From the NCBI RefSeq assembly GCF_024171725.1, contig NZ_JAMTCG010000002.1:1-64000 (forward strand): a DNA stretch of 64,000 nucleotides. The letters are read 5' to 3'. Position 1 is the first letter of the stretch; each line of letters starts with the position of its first letter. Positions 19,816-64,000 of this stretch are shown piece by piece. The notes beneath the pieces are model-generated. The model was not told the origin of the DNA and ran no database searches. It saw only the letters and a list, made by a program, of their open reading frames with translations. This DNA comes from Williamsia serinedens (GTDB lineage Bacteria > Actinomycetota > Actinomycetes > Mycobacteriales > Mycobacteriaceae). The position numbers were made by a program, and so were the translations under genes.

Positions 19816-19920
19816 TCGACGTTCCGCGATCGTTTGTGCAGGCTCACAAGATGCCCTCCCGCGGTATGTGAGCTGCGCTTTTACTCGCTCGGGACCCTCA
19901 TTCACCGGCCGTTCACCTGT

Positions 19921-19926
19921 TAGCTT
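19921..19926 (+). promoter_or_regulatory. -10 TAGCTT, leaderless promoter of the DUF4185 gene
   Basis: TANNNT hexamer 6 nt before GTG 19933. It supports this start over ATG 19969; no Shine-Dalgarno is present for the GTG. Confidence 0.45.
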
Positions 19927-19932
19927 CGCCGC

Positions 19933-21048
19933 GTGTTCTGGGGGGAATCAGTTCGACGTGTCGGGACGATGACGGCGGCGGTGGCGATGACCGTCGTGGG
20001 GGCGACGCTGACGGGGGTCGGCGCCGCGGGGGCGGCACCGCCGATGCCGTCCGTCGTCTCGATCGGTCTGCCGCGGTCGACCGGGCTCGCACAGCCGGTC
20101 GCGCAAGAGACCGGCGTCGGCGACATCAACGACACCGTCCACCGGTTCGGCATCGTCGGCACCGACCTCGGGGTGACGTGGGACGACGGATGCGGCGGGG
20201 TGCTCACCGCGTTCGGCGACACCGCGAACTTCGACGGCCGGTCGCTGCTGCGGGGCGAGCTCTACGGCTTCCGATCCAACGTGCTGCTGCGCAGCACGAC
20301 ACGGGACCTCTCCCGCGGGATGTACTTCGACAGCGGCGTCATGGCTGCGCCCGGTCTCGCCAAGCAGGTCCTCGTCCCCGACTACCGGCGGGAGATCACG
20401 GTCCTGCCGACCGGCGGGATCGCCGCGAACGGACGGCAGTACATGACCTACATGGCCGTGAAGCGCTGGGGCGGACCGGGCGAATGGGTCACCGACCGTG
20501 CGGGCGTGGCCTACTCCGACGACGACGGCCAGAACTGGGTGCGCCCGCCCGAGGCGATCCGACCGAACCTCGGGGGCAACAGCGACTTCCAGATGAGTGC
20601 GCTGCTGAAGGTCGGCGACACGATCTACGTCTACGGCACCCCGTCGGGGCGGTTCGGGGCGGTCAGGCTCGCCCGGGTCGCGTCGTCGAAGCTGACCGAT
20701 CTCGGCGCCTACGAGTACTTCTCGAACGGCACGTGGGTGCGCGGGGACGTGAACGCCGCGACGCCGATCATCGGTGCGCCCACCGGCGAGATGTCCGTGG
20801 CCTACAACGCCTACCTCGGGAAGTACGTCTCGCTGGCGACGACCAACACCATCGTCGCCCGCACCGCGCCGTCACCGGAGGGTCCGTGGAGCCCGCCTCG
20901 GGCGTTGATCGACCCAGCCGAGATCACCAGCGCCTACGCGCCGTACATCCACCCGTTCTCCACCGGCAAGGACCTCTACTTCACCGCGTCGCTGTTCCAG
21001 ATCTACAACGTGCTGCTCTGGAAGGTCCCGCTCGACGCGCTGCGCTGA
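19933..21048 (+). CDS. secreted DUF4185 protein, candidate endo-D-arabinanase (GH183-like)
   Basis: A 371-aa exported five-bladed beta-propeller-like protein. The signal peptide spans about residues 8-36 (TMTAAVAMTVVGATLTGVGAAGAA). DUF4185 features include GTDLGVTWDDGCGGVLTAFGDT near the N-terminus, AGVAYSDDDGQNW, and PYIHPFSTGKDLYFTAS at the end. Family knowledge: DUF4185 proteins of mycobacteria and their phages have been described as endo-D-arabinanases acting on cell-wall arabinan (family GH183), so a role in remodelling arabinogalactan is likely. Its last 46 nt overlap the opposite-strand PAP2 gene. Confidence 0.75.
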   Translation: MFWGESVRRVGTMTAAVAMTVVGATLTGVGAAGAAPPMPSVVSIGLPRSTGLAQPVAQETGVGDINDTVHRFGIVGTDLGVTWDDGCGGVLTAFGDTANFDGRSLLRGELYGFRSNVLLRSTTRDLSRGMYFDSGVMAAPGLAKQVLVPDYRREITVLPTGGIAANGRQYMTYMAVKRWGGPGEWVTDRAGVAYSDDDGQNWVRPPEAIRPNLGGNSDFQMSALLKVGDTIYVYGTPSGRFGAVRLARVASSKLTDLGAYEYFSNGTWVRGDVNAATPIIGAPTGEMSVAYNAYLGKYVSLATTNTIVARTAPSPEGPWSPPRALIDPAEITSAYAPYIHPFSTGKDLYFTASLFQIYNVLLWKVPLDALR

Positions 21049-44999: not shown

Positions 45000-45884
45000 T
45001 CAGGGCGCCGGCACCACCGACGCGTAGTGATCGGCGATCTCGCCGGGCGTGGTGAACCAGACGCCGTCGGCGTGCGACGTCATGTGCTCGAGTGCGGCGC
45101 GCACCTGCCGCAGCCGGTAGGGCTGGCCGGCGAGGAACGTGTGCAGCGAGACCGACAACACCACCGGCTGGCGTTCGGCGTTCTCGCGCAGCTCGTCGAA
45201 CGAGTCGGTGATCATGCGCGCGAACGTCTCCGCCGTGTGGTGGTGGTGTACGAAGACCGGCAGGTCGTTGACCTCGTGCGGGTAGGGCACCGACAGCAGC
45301 GGTCCGCTGCGCGTCGTGAGCCAGACCGGCTGGTCGTCGATCGGCCAGTCGAGGGTGTAGGTGAACCCCTGCTCGGCCAGCAGGTCCTCGGTGATGCGAC
45401 TGGGGGCCGCACCCGGGCTCATCCACCCACGCGGGGGTGCCCCCTCGCCGTCGGTGATGGCACGGCGGACGAGGTCGATCGTCTCCCGTTCGGCCTCACC
45501 AGTCAGCGAGTTCGGTGTCGCCGAGTTGGTCCGTCCGTGCGCCACGAACTCCGCCCCGAGCGCACGGAACGCGGCCGGGACAGCCGGGGCGTGCTCGTAG
45601 ATCTCGGAGTTGACCAGCGCGGTCGGTCGGATGCCCACCCGTTCCAGGGTCTCGGCGACGCGGAACGCCCCGACACGGTTGCCGTACTCACGCCAGCCGT
45701 AGTTGTACGAGTCCGGTTGGCTCATGCCCGGCGTGAACCCGAGGTCGGTCGAGCCGTCGTCGTAGGCGAAGTGTTCGCAGTTCACGGCGACGTAGACCGC
45801 CAGCCGGGCTCCCCCGGGCCAGTCGAAACCGGGGCGGTCGGTGATGGCGGAGTGATCGAACCTGCCGTGCGTGGGGAGGGCCAT
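45000..45884 (-). CDS. polysaccharide deacetylase family protein (PuuE/allantoinase-like)
   Basis: A 294-aa NodB-homology protein without signal peptide: RLAVYVAVNCEHFAYDDG, SQPDSYNYGWREYGNRVGAFRV, FVAHGRTNS, GWMSPGAAPSRITEDLLAEQGF and SLHTFLAGQPYRL. The motif pattern is that of cytosolic members such as PuuE allantoinase rather than cell-wall deacetylases. Substrate unknown. ATG 45884 is taken because the longer frame overlaps the divergent glfT2 gene and codes for an unlikely Arg-rich N-terminus. Confidence 0.78.
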   Translation of the reverse strand: MALPTHGRFDHSAITDRPGFDWPGGARLAVYVAVNCEHFAYDDGSTDLGFTPGMSQPDSYNYGWREYGNRVGAFRVAETLERVGIRPTALVNSEIYEHAPAVPAAFRALGAEFVAHGRTNSATPNSLTGEAERETIDLVRRAITDGEGAPPRGWMSPGAAPSRITEDLLAEQGFTYTLDWPIDDQPVWLTTRSGPLLSVPYPHEVNDLPVFVHHHHTAETFARMITDSFDELRENAERQPVVLSVSLHTFLAGQPYRLRQVRAALEHMTSHADGVWFTTPGEIADHYASVVPAP

Positions 45885-45926
45885 CTCCCCATCATGCGTG
45901 GCGCAGGTGGCCGCACGTCGGCGCGA

Positions 45927-45932
45927 TACCCT
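45927..45932 (+). promoter_or_regulatory. -10 TACCCT, leaderless promoter of glfT2
   Basis: TANNNT hexamer 7 nt before GTG 45940. Confidence 0.5.
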
Positions 45933-45939
45933 CACCACC

Positions 45940-47814
45940 GTGACTTCCGCTGACACGGCCACGACCGCGGGGCCGGACCGGGGCGACGGATCGACCGCCG
46001 GTCGGCGCGTCGTCGCCCGCGGCCTGTTCACGGGCACCTCACCCGTCGCGAACGAGGCGCTCTACGCCGTCATGGAGAAGGGCAGCGCGAGCCGCACCCG
46101 GACCGGGCTGCACCTCGAGCGCGGCGCCCACGCGGACATGAACACCTTCTTCGGGCGGTTTCCCGCGAGCTACTGGCAGCGATGGACCACCGCGTCGTCG
46201 GTGACGGTCACCGTCACGGTCGCGACGTCGGCACACCTGCGTCTCGTGCTGTGGGCCTCCGACATCGGCAGCCACCGCCGCATCGTCGACGCGACCGAGG
46301 TGGTCGGCGACGAGACCGTCGAGATGACCGCGCCCCTGACGGCCTTCGCCGACGGCGGGGCGATGTGGTTGTCGTTCCAGGCCATCGACGGGACGGCGCG
46401 GATCACCGACATCGCGTGGTCGGTGGAGACCGCCGAGGCCCCGCGGCCGGTGTCGATCGCCATCTGCACCCACAACCGCGTCCGGCACTGTGCCGAGACC
46501 GTCGCCGCGCTCGCGTCGGATCCCGACGCGTTGTCCGTCGTCGACGCGATCTGGGTGGTCGACCAGGGCGACACCCCGGTGGAGGAGCACCCGCTCTTCG
46601 ACCGCGTCCGCGGGGAGCTCGGCGACACGCTGCACTACCTCCGACAGGCCAATCTCGGTGGTGCGGGCGGGTTCAGCCGCGGCATGTACGAGGCGGCCCA
46701 GCGCACTCCGCACGGCGACGTCGTCCTCATGGACGACGACATCCTGTGCGAGCCCGAGACCGTCCTGCGTCTGGCCGCGTTCGCGGCGATGACGTCCGGC
46801 CCGTCGATCGTCGGCGCGCAGATGTTGTTCCTGCACAACCCGACCCATCTGTTGGCGACCGCCGAGAAGGTCGACCTGGTGAGCCTGCGGCGGGGCGTCA
46901 CCGACGACAGGTACGTGCAGCAGAACAAGAACATGCTGAAGAAGATCTCCGACCGTCGGGCGGAGGCGCAGTACAACGGCTGGTGGACGTGCCTCATCCC
47001 GGCCGAGGTGATCACCACCATCGGCATGCCGCTGCCGGTGTTCTTCCAGTGGGACGACGTCGAATACGGCCTCCGTGCCGCCCGCGCGGGGATTCCGACG
47101 GTCACCCTCCCGGGCGCCGGCGTGTGGCACGCCGACTTCTACTGGAAGGACGTCGACGGGTTCGGCCACTACTTCGCCACCCGGAACGGGTTGATCACCG
47201 CCGCACTGGAACCGGGATTCGCGCCCGACGCCGTCGCGAAGGAGATGGGGCGGGCGATCGCCCGGTCGATCGTCAGCCTGCAGTACGGCCTGGCGCACAC
47301 GCAGTTGCGCGCCCTCGAGGACTTCCTCGCCGGGCCGTCGATCCTCGACGACGGTGGCGCGGCCGCGCTGCGGGAGATCAACGCCGAGCGGCGCGCCTAC
47401 GCCGACACGCAGGTGGTGCCCGTGTCGGCCATCGGGCCGTCGGTCCCGATCCGACGTGCGGCCCCACCGCCGAAGCCCGGCTGGGAGGACGCCGTCCTCG
47501 CCAAGCGCACCGTCGCCCACGCGCGCGGTCGGCTCATCCGCGGTCCCGTCGCGATCTCCTACGAGGACGCGCAGTGGTGGCACGTCGGTCAGTTCGACCA
47601 CGTCTTCGTCACCGACGCCTCGCAGCACGGATGCCGTGAACGCCGCTACGACCGCGACACCGCGCGCCAGCTGAGCGAGCGACTCGTCCGCATCAGCCTG
47701 CGTCTCCGGCGTGAGGCGCCGGGGGTGGCCGCCGCCTACCGCGATGCCATGCCGACGCTGACCAGCGTCGACAACTGGGCTCGGCTCTACGGGATCGACG
47801 CACCGGTCGACTGA
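45940..47814 (+). CDS. glfT2: galactofuranosyltransferase GlfT2
   Basis: Processive UDP-galactofuranose transferase that polymerises the galactan of arabinogalactan on the inner membrane face. The N-terminal beta-sandwich (GSASRTRTGLHLERGAHADMNTFFGRFPASYWQRWT) precedes a GT-A domain: VSIAICTHNRVRHCAETVAAL, QANLGGAGGFSRGMYEA, LMDDDI with the metal-binding Asp265-Asp267, NGWWTCLIPAEVI, and FFQWDDVEYGLRAARAG, then WHADFYWKD and HYFATRNGLI. These match mycobacterial GlfT2 (about 637 aa). It is strong evidence for a mycolyl-arabinogalactan cell wall. Possibly essential. Confidence 0.95.
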   Translation: MTSADTATTAGPDRGDGSTAGRRVVARGLFTGTSPVANEALYAVMEKGSASRTRTGLHLERGAHADMNTFFGRFPASYWQRWTTASSVTVTVTVATSAHLRLVLWASDIGSHRRIVDATEVVGDETVEMTAPLTAFADGGAMWLSFQAIDGTARITDIAWSVETAEAPRPVSIAICTHNRVRHCAETVAALASDPDALSVVDAIWVVDQGDTPVEEHPLFDRVRGELGDTLHYLRQANLGGAGGFSRGMYEAAQRTPHGDVVLMDDDILCEPETVLRLAAFAAMTSGPSIVGAQMLFLHNPTHLLATAEKVDLVSLRRGVTDDRYVQQNKNMLKKISDRRAEAQYNGWWTCLIPAEVITTIGMPLPVFFQWDDVEYGLRAARAGIPTVTLPGAGVWHADFYWKDVDGFGHYFATRNGLITAALEPGFAPDAVAKEMGRAIARSIVSLQYGLAHTQLRALEDFLAGPSILDDGGAAALREINAERRAYADTQVVPVSAIGPSVPIRRAAPPPKPGWEDAVLAKRTVAHARGRLIRGPVAISYEDAQWWHVGQFDHVFVTDASQHGCRERRYDRDTARQLSERLVRISLRLRREAPGVAAAYRDAMPTLTSVDNWARLYGIDAPVD

Positions 47815-48562: not shown

Positions 48563-49891
48563 TCAGGCCCGGACGCCGACCTCCCGCACGATCGACTCGA
48601 CGATCTCTCCGCTCCGGATGGCGATGTTGCTGAGGAGCGACGAGGTCAACCCGTGGGTGTGCTCGGTGCCGCCCTGCAGGAACACCGGGCCGCTCAGCGG
48701 GCGTCGCGTCCGCAGCCGGTAGTCGCGCGACACCGACGGCTGATCGGACCCGGGCGCCTCGCGCAGGACGTCGTCCGACAGATCGCCGAGGATGTCGAGC
48801 GGCATCGGCGTGAACCCGGTGGCGTACACGACCGCGTCGCACGTCAACTCCTCGACCGTGCGCGTCGGGTGGTGTTCCACCGCGACCCGGACACCCCCGA
48901 CCCGGTCGTCACCGAACTCGACGGCCTCGCGCACGCTCGACGCCCCGCGGAAGAACAGTCGACGGTGCCCGGCGACCCGCTCGGCGTACTCGCGCGTGTA
49001 CAGCTCCTCGATGAGCGGCAGGTCCACGCAGGAGTAGTTGGTGCCGCGGTGGTAGTCGAGCAGCTGACGGCGGACGGTCGGCTCGGCGACGTAGAAGTCG
49101 TCGACGGCGGTCGGGTCGAACACCCGGTTCGCGTAGGGACTGTCGTCGGCGGGGCTGTACCCGTACTTGGCGAACACCCCGTGGACCTCGGCGTCCGGGT
49201 AGGTGCTGTGCAGATGGTCGGCCACCTCGGCCGCACTCTGCCCGGCACCCACCACGACGAACCGTTGCTGGGTCGGTGCGGGCAGCTGGGCCAGCCGGTC
49301 CAACAGACGGTGGTTGTGGAACTGACGCGACGACTCGACGACCCCGGCGGGCAACCGGGGGTGGAGCCCGCCGGCCAGGACCACGGAGCGTGCCCGCACC
49401 TGCGACCGACGCCCGCGCTGTTCTGTCTCGACGACGAGGTGGTCGTCCTCCTCGCGCACACCCACCGCGCGGGTGCCGTAGTCGACATGTGCCCGGACCG
49501 TCGACGCCGCCCACTCGAGGTAGTCGTGGAACTCGAGCCGTGTCGGGAAGAACGTCTGGTGGTTGATGAACTCGGTGAGACGTCCGCGCGCCGTCAGGTA
49601 GGCGAGGAAGCTGTAGCGGCTGCGGACGTTCCGCTGGGTCGCGAGGTCCTTGAGGAACGAGATCTGCATCGTCGTCCCGGGGATGAGCATGCCGGTGTGC
49701 CACCCGAAGCGCTCCTGCGCCTCGACGAAGGCGGCATCGATGCGCCCGGACGGGTCATGGACGGCGTTGTACTCCTCGATGGCGATCGCCAGACCCAGGT
49801 TGGACGGGCCGAAGCCGACGCCGACGACGTCGAGCACCGCCTCGTCGTCACCCATTGCGCGCGTGGTGATCTCGTCGTCCGTGAGGGTCAT
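48563..49891 (-). CDS. L-ornithine N5-monooxygenase (siderophore hydroxylase, SidA/PvdA/CchB type)
   Basis: FAD- and NADPH-dependent N-hydroxylase of 442 aa, making N5-hydroxyornithine for hydroxamate siderophores. FAD motif [20 protein letters not shown], the substrate-side signature [30 protein letters not shown] motif [17 protein letters not shown], and the ATGF motif (YATGFTPMP) appear in order. Lysine-specific relatives share these motifs, but the adjacent NRPS adenylation domain with an N5-hydroxyornithine code favours ornithine. The ATG overlaps the panD stop (ATGA), so it is coupled to panD under an iron box. Confidence 0.9.
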
Positions 49892-50334
49892 CGGACACCG
49901 ACCCGTCCGGACGTCGCGACCGCGTCCACGTCGGACCGCCACTGATCGTCGGCGCCGGGGACGGGTTCGGCGGGATCGTCGCCGAGCGCCACGATGCTGT
50001 TGTCCGCGTCGACGTGCACCACGCGGGCGCGGTGAGAGGCGAGTTCGGATTCCTCGACGTCCCGGAAGGACATGATGATGACCAGGTCTCCTGGCTCGAC
50101 GAGATGCGCTGCGGCGCCGTTGATCCCGATGACACCGGATCCCGCCGGCCCGGGGATCACATAGGTGGTGAGCCGGGCGCCGTTGGTGATGTCGACGACC
50201 TGCACCTGCTCGCCGTCGACGATGTCGGCGGCGACCATCAGGTCCGTGTCCACGGTGATCGATCCGACGTAGTGCAGGTCGGCCTGTGTCACCGTCGCCC
50301 GATGTATTTTGCCGCCCAACATGGTTCGGCGCAT
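49888..50334 (-). CDS. panD: aspartate 1-decarboxylase PanD, in a siderophore operon
   Basis: Pyruvoyl enzyme converting L-aspartate to beta-alanine. Signature [20 protein letters not shown], self-cleavage site Gly-Ser in YVGSITVD (pyruvoyl from the Ser), then [35 protein letters not shown] (conserved core). 148 aa is normal for actinobacteria. GAGGG precedes the ATG; a second ATG four codons later is possible. Normally panD sits with panC for pantothenate synthesis; here it is the first gene of an iron-box-controlled operon with the ornithine hydroxylase, suggesting dedicated beta-alanine supply for the siderophore. Confidence 0.92.
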
Positions 50335-50385
50335 GAAGCCCTCATTCCGTATTCGCGTGACGCCGCGGACGCGGACGTCCAGAAC

Positions 50386-50404
50386 TGAGCACAGGCTAAC
50401 CTAT
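50386..50404. promoter_or_regulatory. IdeR iron box (panD side)
   Basis: Matches 14 of 19 to TTAGGTTAGSCTAACCTAA, including GGCTAACCTAT. It lies 52 nt upstream of panD and 35 nt upstream of fecB-like. Confidence 0.7.
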
Positions 50405-50414
50405 ATAACGCGAA

Positions 50415-50433
50415 TTAGGTAATGATACCCTAA
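50415..50433. promoter_or_regulatory. IdeR iron box overlapping the fecB-like -10
   Basis: Matches 15 of 19 to the IdeR consensus (TTAGGT...CCCTAA), the best in the window. It covers TACCCT (50426-50431), an extended -10 (TGATACCCT) 7 nt before ATG 50439, so binding would block the promoter directly. Confidence 0.75.
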
Positions 50434-50438
50434 CCCGC

Positions 50439-51455
50439 ATGTCACACCCTCTGACCTCACCCCGGGCGGCGACTCGCCGCTCCCGCTCGACCCGGCTGCT
50501 GCGCCTCGGCGTCGTCGCCGCGGTTGCCGCCCTCGGGATCGGCCTCGTGGCCGCCTGTGGGTCCGACGCCGACAGCTCGTCGTCCGGCCCCACCGTCACC
50601 GTCGACCACAAGTTCGGCAGCACAAAGGTCCCCGCCGATCCGAAAAGGGTTGTGACGGTGGGCTACAACGATCAGGACTTCGTCCTGGCGCTGGGCGTGG
50701 TCCCGATCACCACCCGAGCCTGGTACGACTCGTACAACTCCATGCCGTGGGTCAAGGAGGCCACCGACGGCAAGGGGGTTGCGTCCATGCAGGGCGACAG
50801 CGCCGACTTCGAGGCCATCGCGGCTGCGAAGCCCGACCTCATCCTCGACATCTACGACACGGTCGACCGCAAGACCTACGACCGTCTCTCGCAGATCGCC
50901 CCCACCGTCGTCCAGCCCGGTCAGTACAAGGACGAGGAGACACCCTGGGACGCACAGCTCCTGCTGACCGGACAGGCACTGGGCAAGCAGGACCGGGCTC
51001 AGGCGTTGGTGACGGAGGTCCGCGGCAAGATCGACGCCGCGAAGGCGGCGCACCCGGAGTTCGCCGGCAAGACCCTCGTGGAGGACTTCGGTCCCGAGAA
51101 CGGCGGGCACTACCTCATCGGCGCCAACGACCCCCGCCGAACACTGTTCGACGCGTTGGGTTTCCGCGCGCAGGACACCGTCGGTGATCTCTCCGAGGAG
51201 AAGCTCTCCCTGCTCGACCGGGACATCCTCTTCGTCAACGGCGCGACGAAGCAGCAGATGTCGGCCTCGCCCGCCTTCAGCCGGCTGGCCGTGGTCCGCG
51301 AGGACCGCACGCTCTACACCACGTTCGACTCGCCCCTGTCGGGCGCACTGGCCTACAGCGGACCGAACGCACTGATGTACGCCCTCGACGTCCTCGTCCC
51401 GCAGCTGTCCAACGCACTGTCCGGCCGCCCCGTGGCCGACCTCGCGATGGCCTGA
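50439..51455 (+). CDS. siderophore-binding lipoprotein (FecB/FepB type)
   Basis: Solute-binding component for ferric-siderophore ABC uptake, 338 aa. A lipoprotein signal ends at lipobox LVAAC (Cys near residue 40). Type-III periplasmic-binding fold: VDHKFGSTKVPADPKRVVTVGYNDQDFVLALGVVP, AAKPDLILDIYD, YDRLSQIAPTVV and a final DVLVPQLSNAL. It is divergent from the panD/hydroxylase operon under the paired iron boxes and probably binds the siderophore made by the NRPS. Permease and ATPase genes are not in the window. Confidence 0.9.
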   Translation: MSHPLTSPRAATRRSRSTRLLRLGVVAAVAALGIGLVAACGSDADSSSSGPTVTVDHKFGSTKVPADPKRVVTVGYNDQDFVLALGVVPITTRAWYDSYNSMPWVKEATDGKGVASMQGDSADFEAIAAAKPDLILDIYDTVDRKTYDRLSQIAPTVVQPGQYKDEETPWDAQLLLTGQALGKQDRAQALVTEVRGKIDAAKAAHPEFAGKTLVEDFGPENGGHYLIGANDPRRTLFDALGFRAQDTVGDLSEEKLSLLDRDILFVNGATKQQMSASPAFSRLAVVREDRTLYTTFDSPLSGALAYSGPNALMYALDVLVPQLSNALSGRPVADLAMA

Positions 51456-51522: not shown

Positions 51523-54500
51523 TCACCGCAGGAGGTCCGCCAGGCGGCCGAGGGCGGCGCCGGTCAGCATCTGCGAATGCCCCTCCGGCACGACGGTGAC
51601 ACGCATCCGGGGGAACACCCCATGCCACCCCGACGCGCTGCTCGCGTCGAATCCCGGCTCCACCGAACCCGCCTCGAGGAAGTCGACCGGGACGTCGTCG
51701 ACGACCGGCAGCTGTGCCTGCGCGATCAGCCGGTCGCTGTCGAGGTAGGTGCGGATCACCGCGGCGATCGCGTCCGACCCCAGCGAGCGGAGCACGTCGT
51801 CGTGGCCGGCGAGCACCCGCGCCGCGTCGTCCGTCGACAGCGTGGTGTTTGTCGTCGCGGATTCGATCTCGGCCGGCGGCACCCCGAGCTCCCGGAGCAG
51901 CACCGCCAGGGGATCGGCGGCCACGGTCGTCGGGACCGGGGATCCCGGGGCGTGCGCGTCGAGGACGACGAGGCGCTCCACGACGCGACCACGCCGCACG
52001 CATTCCGCGACGACGGCCGGGGCGAGGACACCACCGAAGGACCACCCCACGACGACGACCGGACCGTCCCCCACGGAGTCGTCGAGGCGGTCGACCGTCT
52101 CCGCCACCACGTCCGCGAAGTCCCCGCCCAGCGCGGCCGGGTCGGTGAGACTCCTCGACTGCAGTCCGACGACCGGGGTGCCTGGTCCCAGTGACCGCGC
52201 CAACCCCGCGTATTCCCAGCACATCCCGCTCGCCGGTGGCAGGCACACCACGGGCGTCGCGGTCCCCGCCGTGTTCCATCGCACGACCGGTGCGAGGGCA
52301 TCCGCCGTCGCGCCGGACAGACCCTGTCGTGCCGCGTCGACGGCATCCGCGATGTCGGCGACCGACGGTGACGCCAGCAGGACCCGGACCCCGATGTCGA
52401 CACCGAGGACATCGCGCAGCTGGTCGTGGAGTCGCACGAGCGACAACGAGTGACCACCGAGCGCGAAGAAGTCGTCGGTGGGTGAGGAGGGCGTGACCCC
52501 CAGTACGCGGCCGATCACCTCGGCGACCTCCCGTCGCGTCCCGGACAGTGCGTCCGACGGGACCGCGTCGCCTGCGCCCTCGGGTTCCGGCAACGCGGCG
52601 CGGTCGGTCTTCCCGTTGGGGGTGAGTGGCAGTGCGTCGAGGACGGTGACCGTCGACGGGACCATGTAGGACGGGAGGACCTCGCCCAGATCCCCTCGGA
52701 CAGCGGCGGTGTCGATGTCGGAGCCGACCACGTAGGCGTCGAGACGCACCGAGCCGTCCGCGATGCGCGCGACGACGACCGCGTCGTCGACGCCGTCGAG
52801 ACGACGAAGCGCGGCCGTGACCTCATCGGGCTCGACCCGGTGCCCGCGGATCTTGACCTGGTGGTCGGAGCGACCGCGGTACTCGAGGAGCCCGTCTGTC
52901 CGCCGACGCACCACGTCACCCGTCCGGTACAGCCGCCCGCCGGGTCCGGCGAGCGGGTGGGCGACGAACCGCGCGGCCGTCAGGTCGGGACGGCGGTGGT
53001 AACCGTCGGCGAGCTGCGGACCGCCCAGGTAGAGCTCGCCGACGACACCGTCGGGGACGGGCCGGAGATCGTCGTCGAGCACGACGGCGGTGACCGTGTG
53101 CCACGCGGTGCCGATCGACGGTTCGCCTGTGCCGGTCTCGATCTCGGCGGAGGTGGCCCACACGGTCGCCTCGGTGGGCCCGTACATGTTGACCACCTGT
53201 GCCGCACGCCCCGCGAGCTCGCCGGCGAGGTCGGCGGGCAGGGCCTCACCTCCCACGGCCACCCGGATCCCCGCGAGATCGACGCCGCGGCCCTCTCGGT
53301 CGCGGAAGCGGGTGACCGACGACCACAGCGACGGTGTGGCCTGCGCGACGGTGACCTGGCCCCGGGCGATCACCCCGGCCAGCAGCTCGGGATCGACGAC
53401 CTCGTCGCGCCGGGCCATCACGACCGTCGCCCCGACCGACAGCGGCACCAGGATCTCCAGGACGGCGATGTCGAACGACACCGTGGTCGTCGCGAGCACG
53501 CGGTCGTCGGCACGGATCGGGAACCGGCGGGCAACACCGTCGCGGAACGCGTCGAGTGCCCGGTGCGAGATCACCACGCCCTTGGGCCGGCCGGTCGACC
53601 CGGAGGTGTAGATCAGATAGGCCGCGGTCCCGGCACCCCGGCGCGCCCGGTCGTCCGCGCGCGCCACCGGCGACCACTCCTGCTCGCCGAGCAGCCGGAC
53701 CGGCGCCGACGACCAGTCGACCTCCGCGTCGGCGAGCACCACCGCCGGCTGCGCGTCGTCGACGATGTGGCGCAGACGTTCGGCGGGGACCGCGGTGTCC
53801 AGCGGCAGATAGGCCGCACCCACACGGTTCACGGCCGCCAGGGCCACGACGAGACCGACGTCGCGACGGGCCGCGACGGCGACGACGTCTCCTGGCGCGA
53901 CCCCCAGACCGGTGAGCCGGTCGGCGAGTGCGCGGACCCGCGCGGCGAGGTCGCGGTAGGTGACGGCGTCGTCACCGACCGTCACCGCGACGGTTCCGGG
54001 GTGCGCGGCGGCGACGGCCTCCATGTCGCCCACCCACCCCCGTGACACCTCGACGCGCGGGATCCGCACCACGGGCGGGTCGACGGCGTCGAGCGTTGCG
54101 ATCGAGGCGTCCGGGGCGTCGGGCATGGCCGTCGCGACCCGTGTGATCGCCGATGCCAGCGACTCCATGAGTGACGGCGAGTAGCGGTCGGCGTCGTACT
54201 CGACGATCACGTCGATGTCCGCCCCGGCGCCGTGGTCGACGCAGGTGACGTTCACGTCGACCTTGACCTCACGGGGTCCGGCGTCGACGTCCGACACCGG
54301 GGACCCGAACAGCGTGTCCCCCGTGTCGCCGCCGCGATCCGACCGGAAGTACCCCAGCATGACCGAGAAGAGCGGTGTCCGGCCGGCGACGCGACCGGGG
54401 TTGACCGCGGCCACGACCTCGGCGAACGGAACGTCGGCGTGATCGTGGGCGGCGAGGTCGATGTCGCGCACACGGTCGATGAGTGCGCCGACCCGCGGCC

Positions 54501-57500
54501 GGTCCACGAGATCGACCCGGGTGACCAGGGTGGAGGCGAAGTACCCCACGACGTCGGTGAGGCGGTCGTCGGCGCGTCCCGATCGCGGTGTGCCGACGAC
54601 TATGTCGTCGCCCGCCCCGAACGCGCGCAGCACCACGGCGAGTGCAGCGTGCAGCGCCATCCCCGTGGTCGCCGACCGCTGCGCGGCCAGTGCGCGCACC
54701 GCGTCGGCCGCCCGGGCGTCGAGACGGGTGGTGACCGTCGCCGCGGGGCGGGAGGTCGCTTCGGGTCGGACCAGGTCGGGACTGACGGTCACCTCGTCGG
54801 GGACGCCAGCGAGATGGTCGCGCCACCAGGCGATCTGCGCGTCGGCGCGGGTGGCGCCGCCCACGGACCTCGCCAGCTCGCGCGTCGCCCAGTCGGCCCA
54901 GTCGCCGTAGGTGAGGGCGAGCGACCCCAGTTCCTCGCCGCGGTAGGCACGGTCGAGGTCACCGAGCAGCACCGCGTCCGACCACTCGTCGGCCACGATG
55001 TGGTGCATCGTCACCAGCAGGACGGACCCGGTGCCGCAGTCGATCTGGGTCACCCGAAGCGGCAGGTCACGGGTGAGGTCGAACGGTCGCGACAACTCTG
55101 TGTCGACGACGGACGCCACGTCCTCCGACTCGATCGTCCGGATCTCGACACGGGCCGCGGCGTCCACCGGGTCGAGGGGGACGGCCAGAGCCGTCCCGTC
55201 GCGGTCGGCGACGACGCTGCGCAGCGGCGCGTGGCGGGTCATCACCGCGACGACGGCGCGACGCAGGGCGTCATGATCGAGTCGGCGCTGCACCCGGACG
55301 GCGATCGGATAGAGGTAGGCGGTGTCCGCCGGGTCGAGTTGCCAGCTCAGCCACAGCTGACGCTGCGCGGGGGACAGCGGGTGCTCCTCGACGTCCGCCC
55401 GATGGACGAGAGCGGTCGGGCCGATGCCGACCTCGCCGCCGTCCGCGCCGGCGCCGAGCTCGGACACCCTGCGGGACAGCCGCTCCGGAGTCGGCGCGTC
55501 GAAGAGATCGCGCAGCCGCAACCGCACGCCGCACCGCTCCCCGACCAGTGCCAGCAGACGCGTCGCGAGGAGTGAGTGACCACCCAGCGCGAAGAAGTCG
55601 TCCTCGGGGCCCACCCGCTCGTCGGTGTCCTCGTCGTCCAATCCGAGTGCCGTCGCGAACACCGCGCACATCCGGCGCTCGGTCTCCGACGTCGCCGCTC
55701 GCGACGACCCCGACACCGGGCGCGGTTCCGGGAGCGCGCGGACGTCGAGCTTGCCGTTGACCGTCAGCGGAAGCGCGTCGACGACGGCGTAGACGGACGG
55801 CACGAGATGGCTCGGCAGCCGGTCGACGAGCGCCGAGCGGACCCGTGTGAGGAACTCTCCGCCCGTGTCCCCCACCGGGATGACGAACGCAGCCAGTCGC
55901 TTTCCCTGGCCGACGCTGTTTCCGTCGATCGCGACCACTGCACCACCGCGGACACCCGGGACATCGAGCAGCGCGGCGGTGACCTCGGCCGGTTCGACGC
56001 GGTGCCCGCGGATCTTCACCTGGTCGTCGGTGCGACCGAGGTAGTCGAGGACGCCGTCGGGCCGCTGTCGCACCAGGTCACCGGTGCGGTAGAGGCGGCC
56101 ACCGTCGATGTCGGCGACGAACGATGCGGCCGTGAGATCGGGGCGGCGGTGATACCCCCGGGCGAGGCCGACCCCACGGATGTACAGCTCGCCCGCGACG
56201 CCACGCGGCACAGGGCGCAGCCAGGCGTCGAGGACGACGCAGTCCGTGTTGGTGATCGGCAGCCCGACCGCTGCCCGGTCGGTGTCGTCGGTCCCGATCC
56301 CCAGGGTGTTGATCGTGTACTCGGTCGGGCCGTACAGGTTGTAGGCGAGCAGATCCGGCGTCGTGCGGAACTCCTCCCACAGGCGATCCGTCACGGCCTC
56401 ACCGCCGAGCAGGACCAACCGCGGGACGTGCGGTCCGCGCAGCAACCCCTCGTCGACGAGATGCGTCGCGTACGTGGGCGTGACGTTGATGACGTCGACC
56501 TCGTGCTCGGCGCAGTAGCGGACGAGCTCGGCCGCATCGCGGCGCAGGTCCTCGTCGCAGACGTGGACGTGATGTCCCTCGACGAGCCAGAGCAGTTCCT
56601 CCCAGCTCATGTCGAACGCGAACGAGACCGTGTGCGCCACGGTCACCGTCGCGTCCGGGCCGTGCTGCGCCCGCAGTCGTGCCACCACCGGCTCGAAGAT
56701 GGCGCGGCGGTGGTTGATCTGCATGTTCGTCAGGCCGCGGTACGGCGTCACCACGCCCTTGGGCCGCCCGGTCGAGCCCGACGTGTAGATCAGGTACGCC
56801 GGATGGTCGAGCGACCGCATCGGCCGGACGGACACGCCGTCGGCCACCGCGGGCACGTCGGACCCGAGGGTCACCACGGGAACGTCACAGGGCGCAAGGC
56901 GATCCCGGGAGGTGTCGTCGACGACGACCAGCGTGGGTTGCGCGTCGGCGACGATGTCGGCGATGCGGTCGTCGGGCGCGGTCAGGTCCAGCGGGAGATA
57001 GGCCGCCCCGGTGGTCAGCACCGCGAACAGCGCCACCACCATCTCGGTCGACCGGGGCAGCGCCAGTCCTACGACGCGTTCGGGTCCGGCCCCGGCAGCT
57101 GCGAGCTGGGCGGCGGCGTCGGAGATCCGTTGCGCCAGCTCGACATAGGTGACGGTGTCCCCGGCACAGGTGAGCGCAGGGCGGTCCGGCGTTCGGCGCG
57201 CCTGAGCGAACAGCAGGTCCGCGATGGTCTCGTCGCCGACGTCGACCCGGTCGCCGGCGATGCACGACGGGACCACCGCCGCACCCGCGGACGCGGCCAG
57301 CGGGCGTCGGGGTGCGGCCGCGACGGCCAGCAGGGTGGCGTGCAGATCCGCCAGGAGGGCACGCGCGGTCTCGGCGTCCACGACGTCGGGCCGGTACTCG
57401 AGCTTGCACCACAGACGACGTCCCGGCATCACGACCCACGTGAGGGGGTAGTGGGTCGCGTCGACGGCGTCGACCGCCGTGATCCCCTGCCGCGCCTCGA

Positions 57501-60500
57501 GATCGGCGAAGGTGTCGTCGTCGAGGAAGTTCTGCAGGACGTAGAGGCTGTCGAACAGAGGCCCCCGCCCGACCGCCCGCTGGATGTCACCGAGTCCGAG
57601 GTACTCGTGGTCCATGGTGGTGACACGGTCGTCGGTGACGGCCCGCATGATCTCGGCGGCGGTGGCCCCGGGGGCGAGCCGCACCCGCAGCGGCACGGTG
57701 TTGAGGAAGACGCCGACCACGTCGTCGAGGCCGTCGATGTCGGTCGGGCGTCCCGCCACGGTCGTCCCGAGGACGACGTCGTCGCGTCCGAGGCGACGAC
57801 CCAGCACCACGGCCAGCGCCGTGCTGACCAGTGCGTGCAGCGTGACACCGGCCGCCCGCGCGCCCCGGGTCAGCGCCGTGGTCTCGTCCTCGGTGAGTTC
57901 GACGTCGACGCGTCGCGCCAGGGCCGGGTCGGCCCCGCGGGCCTCGGGGAACAGCAGCGACGGTTCCTCGAGATCCTCCAACAGCCCGCGCCACACCGAC
58001 TCCGACGCCGCGGTGTCCTGGGCGGCCAGCCACCGCAGGTGGTCGGGCACGGTCGCCGTCGGCCGGGCGAGCTCGGGTGCATTGCCACCGATCCGCCGGG
58101 TGTAGGCGTCGAACAGGGCCGTGAGCACTAGTTCTCGCGACCACCCGTCCCACAGCAGCAGGTGATAGGTGAACAGCAACCGGTCGCGACCGCCGGGGAG
58201 GTGGACGAGGGTGAGCCGGATGAGGGGCGGCCGGTCGAGGTCGAAGGGCGTCGTGCGGTCGGCGTCGCCGAGTGCCCGCAGACGGTCGTCGAGTGCGGCC
58301 GGCGCGACGCCCGTCAGGTCGATCTCGGTCACCGGGACGGACCGGTCGACGACCACCGCGACCTGGCGGTCGGCGGACGGCAGCGTCACCACCCCGACCC
58401 GCATCGCCGGGTGCACGTCCATCACGTCACCCATCGCGGCGCCCAGCGCCGAGGCGTCGAGCCGCCGGTCGAGGTCGAACGCGTTCGCCGCGACGTACAC
58501 GTCGGCGCTGTTCGCCGTCGCCTGGAACCACAGGCCCTGTTGCAGGGGCGACAGGTCCCACACGTCGAGGAGGTCGTCGCCATGGGTCGCCACCAGTGCG
58601 TCGAGATCGGACCCCGACAGCTCCGCCTGCGTCCGCCGGGCGCCGGTCGTCGCGAGGCCGATGTCGTCGATCACCGCCGTCAGGGCGTCGTCGAAGCCCC
58701 CGATGACGTCGTCGACGTCGCCGCCCCGGACGGTGCCCGGCCGCGGGACGCGGATCGCGATGTGGAGACGGGTGCCCTCCGCGTGCGATCGGCACCACGC
58801 GTTGACCTCGAGCAGGTACGGCGTGCCGAGACCCGGGTCCGGCTCGGCGCGCACCGTCTCGTCGGTGGGCGCCCAGTCGCGGTCGACGCCCGCGTGGCCT
58901 CGTCCGAGATAGTTCACCATCACCTGCGGAGCCGATCCGCGGGCGAGCACACCGGCGGTGCGCGGGTTGCAGTACCGCAGCAACCCGTGTCCCAGGCCGT
59001 CGCCCGGCACCGCCCGGAGGACGTGGGCGATGTCGCGCACCGAGGAGTCGTCGCCAGCCGCGAGCGCCGCACCCGGCAGGCGCACCGGCGCGATGGACGT
59101 GCACCATCCCGCGGTCCTGCTGAGGTCGACTTCCTGGAGGTCTCGCCCGTGCCGCTCGACGTCGATCGACAGGTCGCCGGGGCCGCGGACCCGCGAGGCG
59201 GCGAGGGCGACGGAGGCGACCAGCAACTCGGTGGCGTCCACGTCGAAGGCGGCCGTGGCCGTGCTCAGGAAGCGGTCGGTCGTGGCCACGTCGAGCACGA
59301 CCTCGTGCTCGACGGTGTCGCCGAGGGTCAGCGCCACCGTCGCGGCGCCCGGGACGAGTTCCGCGCCCGGCGCGACCTGCGCCGACCAGTGGTCGAACTC
59401 GGCAAGACGTGCGGGGCTCGCCGACTGTTCGGTGAGCGCCGACGCGTAGCGCCGCAGCGACGTCGTCGCGGGCGGTGGTGTCACACCCGCCCAGGCGTCG
59501 ACGAGATCGTCGAGCAGGATCCGCCACGTCACGGCGTCGACCGCCAGGTGGTGGACGGCGAGCACGAGACGTCCCGGCAGGTCCCCGGCGTCGAGGAACG
59601 CCGCGGACACCATGACGCCCGCGTCGGGGTCCAGCCCGTCGGCCGCCGTGTCCGATGCCTGCGCCACCGCCGCCTCGCGCTCGTCATCGGTCGCGCCCCG
59701 GATCGATTCGACCGTCCACGGCAGCGTCGTGGCCGTCTCGTCGACGCCGCCGTGTGGCGTCACCTCGAGCGACCACAGGAAGGCGTTCGGCCGGTGGAGC
59801 CGCTGACGCAGCGCGTCGTGGCGCCGGATGAGGCCGGCGACGCACGCACGCACCCGCTCCGCGTCCGCACCGGCGGGGGTCTGCACCACCACCGCCTGAC
59901 AGAACCGACGGATGTCCCCGCCGAGCTCGGAGAGCCGGTGGACGATCGGGGTGAGGAGCACCTCCCCCGGATCCGACTCCCCCGACGCGTCGACCACGGG
60001 CTGTGCGGGCGCGACGGCGGTCCCGGTGTCCTTCGTCGCCGCGAGCGCACGCGCGGTGCGCAGACGGAAGACATCCTTGGGAGTGATGCTCAGTCCGAAC
60101 GCCTTCGCCCGGTTGACGAGGGAGATGGCGACGATGCTGTCCCCGCCGAGCGAGAAGAAGTCGTCGTCGGGACCGACGTCGCCACGTCCCACCAACTCGG
60201 ACACGACGGCGACCAGCCTCGAGACGGGGTCGACGTCGGCCGTCGGACCGTCCGGGACCGGTGGCTCTGCGGAGGAGTCGAGCACGGCGGTGTCGACCAC
60301 GGCGGTGTCGATCGCGGAGGCCAGTACGGCCGCCCGGTCGACCTTCCCGTTCCCGGTGAGGGGTATCGACTCCACCCGCGCATACCGGACCGGGATCATG
60401 TACCCGGGGACGAGAGGTTTTGCGGCGTCGCGGATCTCGTCGTCGGTCACCGCACGGTGGGTGACGACGGCGGCGACGAGCACGTCGCGACCCGTGGTGT

Positions 60501-63500
60501 CCGGGCCGACGGCCGCCGCCGCGTCGACGACACCGTCGACCGCGCAGAGCGCGTGGTCGACCTCGCCGAGTTCCACGCGGTACCCGCGCACCGAGACCTG
60601 CTGATCGGACCGGCCCACGTACACGAGGTCACCGGCGTGGTCGCGGTACGCGAGGTCGCCGCTGCGGTACATCCGCTCCCCCGCCGGGCCCGCGACGAAG
60701 CGGGTGGCGGTCAGGTCGGGCCGACCCGAGTACCCGATCGCCAGTTGGTCTCCCGAGACGTAGATCTCACCGATCACGCCGGCGGGGACGGGGCGCAGCA
60801 CATGGTCGAGGAGTGCGACGTCCAGACCCGCGAGCGGCCGACCGATCACGCCGACACCGGCGGTGGCCGCCGGGCCCGTCTGGTCGTCGGTGACGTGATG
60901 CGCCGTGACGTGCACGCAGGTCTCGGTGATGCCGTACATGTTGACCAGTCGGGTCCCGGGGAGAGCCGGCAGTCGGCGTGCGTCGAGCGCCTCGCCGCCG
61001 AAGACCACGGTCCGAACGGGAAGCGTTGCCACGTCCACGGTCCCGGCCAGGGCGTGGAACGCCGACGGTGTGTGGCTCAGCAGCGTGACGCCCTGCTCGC
61101 GGATCAGCGCGGCCAGCCTCTCCGGGTCACGGCGGTCGTCGCCGTCGACCACCACGAGCCGTCCGCGGTGCGCCAGCGCACCCCAGACCTCCCACACGGA
61201 GAAGTCGAACGCGATGCTGTGGAACAGGGTCCACACCTGTCCGTCGAGGTCGACGTGCTCCGCGGCGGAGGCGAACATCGCCGTCACCGACGCGTGCGCC
61301 ATCTCGACCGCCTTCGGCCTCCCGGTCGACCCCGAGGTGTAGATGAGGTACGCAGGCGAGTCCGGTAGCGGGCACACCGGTGCCGGCAGGCCGCCGGGAT
61401 CCGATGCACCGGACGACTCTGACACCCCTGCCCCCGCGACGTACACCGCCACACCGCCGGGAACCGGGACGCGCGACCGCGTGCCCTCGGTGACCACCAG
61501 GACGTCGGGTGCGGCGTCGGTGACGATGTACCGCAGGCGATCCGCCGGTGACTCGATGTCCAGGGGCACCGCCGCCGCGCCGCTGCGGGCGACGGCCACC
61601 ATGGCGACCACGAGATCGACACCGCGCGGCATCGCGACGGCGACGCGTCCACCCGGGCGTGCACCGACCGAACGCAGCGCGGACGCGAATGCCGCACTGC
61701 GACGGTCGAGGTCGCGGTAGGTCAATGACTCCGTACCGTCGGTGAGGGCAACGGTGTCGGGGACCGTGTTCACCGCCGACAGGAATGCGTCGACCACAGT
61801 CGACGGGGCACGCGTCGCCCGACCGCCGATCATCGACGCGTCGTCACGGGTGAGTGCGACGTCGGCGAGTCGCCTGTCCGGCATCGCGATCCAGTCGTCG
61901 ACGACCACGGTGACCGCGTCGGCGAGCGACCGCGCCGTCGTCTCCGACACGACGGCGGCGTCGTACTTGATCTCGTAGGTCGTCGACTCGCCGGGGAACA
62001 CGACCAGCGACACCGGGTAGTGCGGGGTGTCGACACCGGTGAAGCCCGTCACCGACAGCGCATCCGGATCGTCACCGCCTCCCGCAGGGTCCACGTCCGG
62101 GAAGTTCTCGACGACCACCATGGAGTCGAACAGAGACGTCTGACCGACGATCCGGCCGATGTCGGCCAGACCGATCTGCTGGGCGTCCATGACCTCGGTC
62201 TGGGTGTCGGCGACGGCACGGACCACGTCACCGAGTCGCGCCGACGCCGGCACCGCCACGGGCAGCGGGTTGGTGTTGATGAGCAGACCGACGACGCCGG
62301 TGACGTCGAGGGTCGTCCCCGCCCGCCCGGACACGGTCGAGCCGAACACGACGGTGTCCTGCCCGGTGAGGCGACCGAGCACGACGGCCCACGCGGCATG
62401 GACCACCGCGCCGAGTGTCACGCCACGACTGCGCGCCGCTGCGGTCAGCGCGGCCGACGGCGCCGTCGTCGAGACGCTCCGGAAGCCGTTCTCTCCGTGC
62501 GTCGTGCGCGGCAGGGCCGGCGCGAGGAGAGTCGGTGCGGCCTGCGGGCCGAGGACGTCGGTGAGGACCGTCCGCCATGTCTCGCGGGCGCTGTCCGGAT
62601 CGCCGGCCGCGACGGTCTCGACGTGATCGGGCCATCCGACGGCGGGCCGGGGCAACGCCTCGTCGAGGCGGTATGCCTCGACGAGGTCGGCGAAGACGAG
62701 CGGGTACGACCACCCGTCCGCGAGCGCGTGGTGCATCGTCTGGACGAGTCGGTGCTCGGTGTCGCTCAGCGACACGAGGGTGAACCGGACGGGCGGTCGG
62801 GCGGCGAGGTCGAGCGGGCGACGCAGCTCCGCCGCCGCGATCCTGTCGGCGGCAGTGGCAGGGGCGGTGTCATTGTCGGGGGTGCCGCGCAGGTCGTGGT
62901 GGTCGAGATCGACGGTGTCCGCCGGGTCCACGACCTGGACGACCGCCCCCCGTTCCGTCGCGACGAACCGGGTACGCAGCGCGTCGTGGCGTGCCACGAC
63001 CGCGGTGAGGGCGCGACGCAGACGGGCGACGTCCACCGCGCCGACGAGGTGCGCGGTCTGCTGCACGACGTACGGGTCGCCCGGCGTGGTGACCGTGTCG
63101 CCGTCGGCCAGCAGCATCGAGTGCGCGTACATGCCCGCCTGCAGCGGGAGCATCGGGAGCACGGCCACCGGCGCTCCGCCCTCGCCGGCGAGGGCGGAGA
63201 GGTCGCCGGCGCTGAGCGACACCAGCGGGAAGTCCGATGGCGTCGCGCCCCCGATGGGGGCACGGACGAGTGCCCGCAGCGCGGTCATCCACCGCTCGCC
63301 GAGATCGGCCATCGCCGCCTCGCCCTCGGCTGTGTCACCGTCCAGGATCCCGTCGGGCCACATCAGGTCGACGACGAGCCGGCCGTCCACCCCGATCTGG
63401 GCCGTGATCTCCAGCGCCGCCGAGGGATTCGACGGGTCGACACCCTCCCGCAGTGCGCCGATCCCGTCGACCGGTGCCCAGTCGCCACCGGTACCGGACG

Positions 63501-64000
63501 ACCCGTCGAGCCGTCCGAGGTAGTTCATGAGGATCTCCGGCGCCGGGCCCTGCAGTGCGGGGTGCCGATGAACGTGCCGCAGCATGCCGTACCCCAGGAC
63601 CCCGACGCCTCCGCCGGTGCCCGGGGTCGAGCGGATCTGTTCCTTCACCGACTTCACTGCGCGGTCGAGGGCCGCGTCGGCGTCGATCACCTCCGGCCAG
63701 TCGACGTCACCCGCGTCCACCGCGACGGGGTGGATCGCGGTGAACCAGCCGATCGTCTCGGCGAGATCGACACCCGTGCCGGTGTCACCCAGCGCCTCGG
63801 GGCGTCGCCCGTGCCCCTCGAGATTGACCAGCAGGCGGCCGTCGGTGTCACCGGTTCGCTGCGTGCGCCACGCCCGCACCGCCAGGGACAGGCCCGCCAG
63901 CAGCAGGTCGTCCACGGTGCCGTTGACGGCGGCGGGCACACGGCCGACGAGGTCGGCCGTTGCTGCGCTGTCGAGGCTGACCCGGACAGTCCGCGTCGTC
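51523..64000 (-). CDS. siderophore nonribosomal peptide synthetase, C-terminal part (start outside window)
   Basis: The frame is open to the window end; at least 4,150 aa are visible. Numbering from codon 63937: partial epimerase 1-245 ([22 protein letters not shown]); C ([10 protein letters not shown]); A with core near 866 and pocket code DFWSVGMVHK, close to the threonine code; PCP Ser1268 (LGGDS); epimerase ([11 protein letters not shown] near 1463); C with HLLLWDG near 1927; A near 2383 with code DMENLGLINK, the N5-hydroxyornithine code known from coelichelin synthetase; PCP Ser2789; C with [10 protein letters not shown] near 3445 with code DILQAGMVWK, glycine-like; PCP Ser3831; thioesterase with GWSFGG (Ser3967). 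Predicted end of product: D-X, D-allo-Thr, hydroxyOrn, Gly-like, released by the TE. Confidence 0.92.

Follow-up and report, generated by a model that had tools for sequence, protein, structure and literature searches.

A second aspartate decarboxylase gene, panD, predicted to supply beta-alanine to an exochelin-type siderophore cluster in Williamsia serinedens

In this study we describe a panD gene, annotated as an aspartate 1-decarboxylase gene, that is found in a putative hydroxamate siderophore cluster of Williamsia serinedens. The window, meaning the whole stretch of DNA that was analysed, comprises the first 64,000 nucleotides of contig NZ_JAMTCG010000002.1 (assembly GCF_024171725.1), and its features are collected in Table 1. 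The genes and their order are read directly from the DNA. When the neighbouring L-ornithine N5-hydroxylase gene is read from the ATG at 49891, it overlaps panD by the four bases ATGA (49888-49891). On its other side panD is separated by 104 bp from a divergently oriented gene for a FecB-like lipoprotein, with which it shares a promoter region. Both the overlap and the divergent promoter had been proposed in an initial annotation made without database searches, and both are borne out, the latter by a Peripla_BP_2 match and a lipobox-like LVAAC motif in the lipoprotein. The closest named match of the hydroxylase is found in a Williamsia metagenome-assembled genome (MAG), at 77% identity.

The panD product scores 165.6 bits against Pfam family PF02261 (cut-off 25) and 154.4 bits against NCBIfam TIGR00223 (cut-off 106). 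Its best PDB match is the aspartate 1-decarboxylase 2c45 (157.5 bits), to which it aligns free of gaps over residues 1-123. In an alignment of 14 PanD sequences K9, Y22, G24-S25, R54, T57 and Y58 are invariant; we take G24-S25 to be the processing site and the other residues to have catalytic roles, and the enzyme is predicted to be active. A whole-genome search of the 4.6-Mb W. serinedens genome (G000) found exactly two PF02261 genes. The other one, at G000:C5:183435-183776, stands in the housekeeping gene order panC-panD-coaX, next to panC, where the initial annotation had suggested that a further copy be sought. The cluster panD is therefore a second copy, whose product shares 67% identity with the housekeeping PanD across 129 residues, and the possibility that it is the genome's only panD, which that annotation had named as the case that would speak against its proposal, is ruled out.

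The window also holds the 3' part of a non-ribosomal peptide synthetase (NRPS) gene that runs past the window end, from contig position 51523 to 74265, and encodes a protein of 7580 aa with six modules. The adenylation (A) domains beyond the window lie at contig positions 65122 (module 3), 68353 (module 2) and 72865 (module 1), and beyond the NRPS gene there are two ATP-binding cassette (ABC) exporters (PF00664/PF00005) and a formyltransferase (PF00551/PF02911). The A-domain codes of modules 1 to 6 are DINYWGGIG, IDTVISSGD, DMENLGLIN, DFWSVGMVH, DMENLGLIN and DILQAGMVW, which we assume to denote N-formyl-N-hydroxyornithine (fhOrn), beta-alanine (beta-Ala), N-hydroxyornithine (hOrn), threonine, hOrn and glycine. 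The module 2 code shares five of nine positions (D236, V278, I299, S301 and D331) with the beta-Ala code VDWVISLAD, and both are without D235. Pfam recognises eight condensation-type stretches (2+3+3), matching five condensation and three epimerisation (E) domains, with E-like motifs in modules 1, 3 and 4, the one in module 1 being atypical. The predicted peptide would be N-formyl-N-hydroxy-D-Orn, beta-Ala, N-hydroxy-D-Orn, D-Thr and N-hydroxy-L-Orn, and the residue of the Gly-like sixth module may or may not remain in the product. The calculated [M+H]+ is 609.320 for the pentapeptide and 666.342 if Gly is retained. Six A domains are also found in six of the eight exochelin-type relatives that were read to the end (G062, G107, G120, G031, G313 and G303), and seven in the other two (G321 and G304). 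The module 6 code is Gly-like in the window and DTWDTGLVD in Mycolicibacterium loci L103, L105, L106 and L116. The cluster is adjoined by a GlfT2-like galactofuranosyltransferase gene (45871-47814), as it is in loci L067, L069, L070 and L071.

Table 1. Features of the siderophore cluster in the window (positions are those of the window; a dot marks features to which no strand is assigned).
Feature	Position	Strand	Basis
L-ornithine N5-hydroxylase gene, ATGA overlap with panD	48563..49891	-	PF13434, 322 bits
Second panD, aspartate 1-decarboxylase (pyruvoyl type), siderophore-type with Gly8	49888..50334	-	PF02261/TIGR00223
IdeR-like box, 14/19	50386..50404	.	consensus scan
IdeR-like box, 15/19	50415..50433	.	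consensus scan
FecB/FxuD-like siderophore-binding lipoprotein gene, divergent to panD	50439..51455	+	PF01497 (Peripla_BP_2), 86.8 bits
NRPS gene, 3' part (modules 4-6, thioesterase, end of module 3)	51523..64000	-	continues to contig position 74265
A domain, module 6, code DILQAGMVW (Gly-like)	52744..53600, end approximate	-	code extraction
A domain, module 5, code DMENLGLIN (hydroxyornithine-type)	55909..56800, end approximate	-	code extraction
A domain, module 4, code DFWSVGMVH (Thr-type)	60466..61300, end approximate	-	code extraction

Two IdeR-like boxes had been noted in the shared promoter region. Our rescan, for which we assumed the IdeR box consensus TTAGGTTAGGCTAACCTAA, returned the same two scores. 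As a control, Markov sequences were generated from a model of the intergenic stretch; 0.4% of 2000 had a site of at least 14/19, and none of another 2000 reached 15/19. In 100 kb of the contig there are five sites of at least 14/19, all inside the cluster: two before panD (50386 and 50415), two overlapping at the NRPS start (74265 and 74270, spanning 74265-74288) and one near the exporter/formyltransferase junction (78101). Five 100-kb Markov sequences contained no site of this strength, and a chance origin of the boxes was set aside after these controls. Upstream of panD a site of at least 14/19 was present in 17 of the 20 panD loci scanned. The genome encodes two Fe_dep_repr_C regulators, not told apart, which are the candidate IdeR-type proteins, and binding to the boxes is predicted. 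In the part of PMC10597346 that was available, the M. smegmatis iron-starvation genes that rise more than 2-fold in citrate include MSMEG_0018-MSMEG_0022, given as a range in which MSMEG_0021 is not named singly.

Taken together, we consider it very likely that panD (49888-50334) encodes a dedicated isozyme supplying module 2 of the neighbouring exochelin-type NRPS with beta-alanine, and is derepressed by low iron along with the cluster. The IdeR-type iron control of panD is a prediction from the boxes. At low iron the repressor would leave the boxes in three promoter regions, those of panD-hydroxylase/lipoprotein, the NRPS and exporter/formyltransferase, so that the supply of beta-alanine and hydroxyornithine would be switched on jointly with the assembly line and export.

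The comparison with other clusters is based on 80 named hydroxylase loci among the matches listed, a set in which M. smegmatis is not included. In 23 of these 80, panD lies within the fetched flanks (up to 9 kb) of the hydroxylase gene, in Williamsia, Mycobacterium/Mycolicibacterium, Rhodococcus/Rhodococcoides and Gordonia malaquae. When the window's own beta-Ala A domain was used as query at E <= 1e-80, it was found in only 10 of 151 genomes of the family because this domain diverges fast, and codes were therefore read from the fetched clusters. A beta-Ala code (IDT/VDT-type) is present in 18 of the 19 clusters that have panD and the NRPS on the same contig (G000, G044, G094, G062, G107, G120, G313, G321, G303, G304, G031, G139, G308, G312, G010, G190, G068 and G467). 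Among 11 clusters without panD it is present in three, all from Gordonia (G330, G332 and G336), and was not found in the other eight (G309, G340 copy 1, G306, G324, G320, G316, G016 and G019). The difference gives a Fisher P of 0.0002, uncorrected for kinship and picking. Counts were tallied by hand, and A-domain-like matches on stand-alone neighbour genes (codes such as AMPSRGSTT) were disregarded. Excluded were M. neoaurum G302 and Gordonia malaquae G317 (panD and NRPS on different contigs), the partial G150 and G305, G328 (no full A domain found) and other hydroxylase loci with 9-kb flanks only, including Williamsia L076, L117 and L118, which have panD and a beta-Ala code. A Fisher test collapsed to hand-made genus groups (7/0 vs 1/6) is rough and was not relied on.

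The initial annotation's suggestion of a beta-Ala-containing siderophore thus gains support from the second panD, the boxes, the beta-Ala-type module 2 and this co-occurrence across genera, all of it evidence from sequence. There are nevertheless several observations that weigh against the proposed role. The clusters were hand-picked from panD and hydroxylase matches and are related, and the P value is therefore only descriptive. Several of the clusters without panD are partially covered, with three A domains in G309 and in G324. The W. limnetica-like G059 has panD and no beta-Ala code in five full A-domain matches, at a place where the contig ends, and no hydroxylase was seen for G068 and G467 within the stretch read. 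M. neoaurum and Gordonia malaquae have panD and the beta-Ala module on separate contigs. No iron box of at least 13/19 was found upstream of panD in L101, L104, L109 and L117. Finally, the three Gordonia clusters have a beta-Ala code and no panD on the contig, and a clustered panD is therefore dispensable. It appears from the sequences that panD accompanies beta-Ala modules, while Gordonia shows such modules without a clustered panD.

The ability of these Gordonia clusters to manage without panD raises the question whether panD might be a passenger gene with no siderophore role. Yet its place beside the hydroxylase or the NRPS gene is conserved across five or more genera of the family, and also in G467 of another family, and the clustered panDs mostly have iron boxes and fall on a single branch of the PanD tree. 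We regard a mere passenger as extremely unlikely.

Three side observations concern individual genera. In Mycolicibacterium neoaurum (L089, L237-L238) panD, hydroxylase and exporters share a contig and the beta-Ala-coded NRPS lies on another. In Gordonia polyisoprenivorans, G. effusa and Gordonia sp. ABSL1-1 (L244-L249) a beta-Ala-type module lies near the hydroxylase gene on a contig without panD. Pseudonocardia dioxanivorans CB1190 (G306, L229-L230), the clearest control for the link between panD and the beta-Ala code, has a hydroxylase 69% identical to that of the window and an exochelin-like line reading fhOrn, DARQIGVID, hOrn, Thr, hOrn, X; no panD was found in the 60 kb fetched, and its single panD lies more than 6 Mb away in coordinates. 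This line without a beta-Ala code probably makes a different siderophore.

The PanD tree has 93 rows and, being built on 118 columns, modest resolution. Glycine at position 8 (Gly8) is carried by 36 of the 93 PanDs, all on one side of one branch (support 89/81; 92% of 200 bootstrap trees), where the group is defined by residue 8 itself and its rows were drawn from hydroxylase or NRPS neighbourhoods. Position 8 is serine in 55 of the 57 PanDs outside the group, and Gly8 occurs in none of the panDs found beside panC (42 with serine, one unread). The siderophore-type PanDs differ from the aligned housekeeping PanDs in this residue (window 50311-50313) and in the C-terminal tail (49888-49960). A recent local duplication was set aside, as the cluster PanD groups with other Gly8 PanDs and apart from its own housekeeping PanD. 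The group extends to G467, a 9.7-Mb genome of another family, where a second, Gly8 panD (end of L292, about 19855-20000, and start of L293) stands directly before an NRPS opening with a beta-Ala-type module and is preceded, at a distance of 40 bases, by an iron box scoring 18/19. A dedicated siderophore PanD lineage has apparently gone unreported so far.

Gly8 and the altered tail might also mean that the substrate of the cluster PanD has shifted, so that it makes another beta-amino acid or an amine for module 2, whose codes vary slightly (IDTVISSGD, IDTVTSFGD, VDTVISLGD). The catalytic and processing residues are invariant, however, and the alignment to 2c45 has no gaps. Furthermore, beta-alanine was seen by nuclear magnetic resonance (NMR) in exochelin MS, according to the accessible portion of PMC5343307, and the producer of exochelin MS has the same gene arrangement. 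A shifted substrate is highly improbable in our view.

A possible exception to the two-copy pattern is seen in mycobacteria. In five mycobacterial genomes (four isolates and one MAG), for whose records no completeness is given, the single PF02261 gene is the one in the exochelin cluster. These are Mycobacterium sp. Root135 (G304), Mycolicibacterium sp. P1-18 (G305), Mycobacterium sp. AT1 (G727), Mycolicibacterium sp. 018/SC-01/001 (G730) and a Mycolicibacterium MAG (G729), with cluster loci L092, L093, L094, L114 and L111 and panC loci L306, L305, L311, L313 and L315. Between panC and coaX these five have neither a panD nor runs of N, and their sole panDs are preceded by iron-box-like sites of 13-15/19. 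A cluster panD is present in 13 mycobacterial genomes overall, and the eight others each carry two copies; in one of these eight, MAG G726, neither copy lies between panC and coaX and the second is on another contig. On the PanD tree the losses of the housekeeping panD are distributed over two branches. Mycobacteria in which the exochelin panD is the sole copy found, as in these five genomes, are apparently unreported.

These genomes bear on another explanation, in which an extra PanD boosts pantothenate and coenzyme A (CoA) for charging NRPS carrier domains with phosphopantetheine during iron starvation. The usual product of PanD does feed CoA, the NRPS is very large, and in the five genomes the cluster panD, the only one found, would have to cover any need for PanD. 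But panD follows the beta-Ala code and not NRPS size, as clusters with four to six A domains exist without it (G340 copy 1, G306, G320 and G019), and no PanB, PanC or PanE was found among the 14 neighbouring proteins scanned. We consider this explanation very improbable for the window. A more far-reaching scenario, which we put forward tentatively and would not bet on, is that the siderophore PanD was born once, spread among actinobacterial clusters and replaced the housekeeping PanD in at least two mycobacterial lineages, leaving the beta-alanine for CoA behind an IdeR-like box. If true, pantothenate supply would be tied to iron status. PanD is a drug target in the genus Mycobacterium, and mycobacteria that seemingly keep the cluster copy alone would make the link between iron and CoA directly testable.

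How does the cluster compare with known systems? The cluster PanD shares with 2c45 the PF02261/TIGR00223 families, the G24-S25 processing site and the catalytic residues, and is unlike it in Gly8 instead of Ser8, in its C-terminal tail, its iron boxes and its NRPS neighbourhood. The coelichelin-type NRPS CchH has the codes DINYWGGIG (fhOrn) and DMENLGLIN (hOrn) and a Thr type, all like those of the window NRPS, but is not known to have a beta-Ala module. Exochelin MS is a pentapeptide with beta-alanine at the second position and the stereochemistry D, achiral, D, D, L, and the module order fhOrn, beta-Ala, hOrn, Thr, hOrn and the predicted D/L pattern agree with it. An FxbA-type formyltransferase, ExiT-type ABC exporters and an FxuD-like binding protein are likewise found in the cluster.

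Kasichelins from Streptomyces are beta-alanine-containing siderophores like the predicted product, but of the phenolate-oxazoline/hydroxamate type (PMC12305651, consulted in part); the words decarboxylase, panD, aspartate and exochelin are absent from its main text. For exochelin MS, threonine, beta-alanine and ornithine spin systems were identified by NMR (PMC5343307, accessible portion). Its locus comprises FxbA (MSMEG_0014), ExiT (MSMEG_0017/0018), FxbB/FxbC (MSMEG_0019) and FxuD (MSMEG_0020) in the available sections of PMC8371482 and PMC4617892. The latter sections also tabulate MSMEG_0021 as an aspartate alpha-decarboxylase next to the L-ornithine 5-monooxygenase MSMEG_0022, report that MSMEG_0021, MSMEG_0022 and MSMEG_0019 move alike under nitrogen limitation (0.18, 0.18 and 0.21) and treat panD in terms of CoA synthesis. 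Among the genomes compared in PMC5550956 the exochelin cluster is confined to M. smegmatis, as far as the accessible text goes. In the open-access literature, as far as its available text extends, we found no text linking an MSMEG_0021-type panD to the beta-alanine of exochelin.

The initial annotation's proposals of a dedicated beta-alanine source, a beta-Ala siderophore and iron control are thus well supported by sequence, but its belief that the arrangement was undescribed did not hold, given the tabulated MSMEG_0021 (PMC4617892) and the MSMEG_0018-0022 range up in citrate (PMC10597346), both in the parts available. Our results offer a possible answer to the question where exochelin-type siderophores obtain their beta-alanine, and suggest that MSMEG_0021 may not simply be the panD for CoA. 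The combination of an IDT-type A domain with a Gly8 panD that neighbours an N-hydroxylase or NRPS gene could serve as a signature predicting beta-alanine siderophores in uncharacterised actinobacteria. The window cluster was compared with the exochelin MS locus by gene lists, and not by sequence. Exochelin MS, with its five residues, offers no counterpart to the sixth module, which is Gly-like in the window, or to the seventh of G321 and G304. The gene lists, as far as the partly available sources give them, show NRPS, FxuD, aspartate decarboxylase and ornithine monooxygenase consecutively numbered in M. smegmatis, along with the formyltransferase and two ExiT entries. As MSMEG_0021 is tabulated in that locus, the window cluster would therefore be a further member of the exochelin kind.

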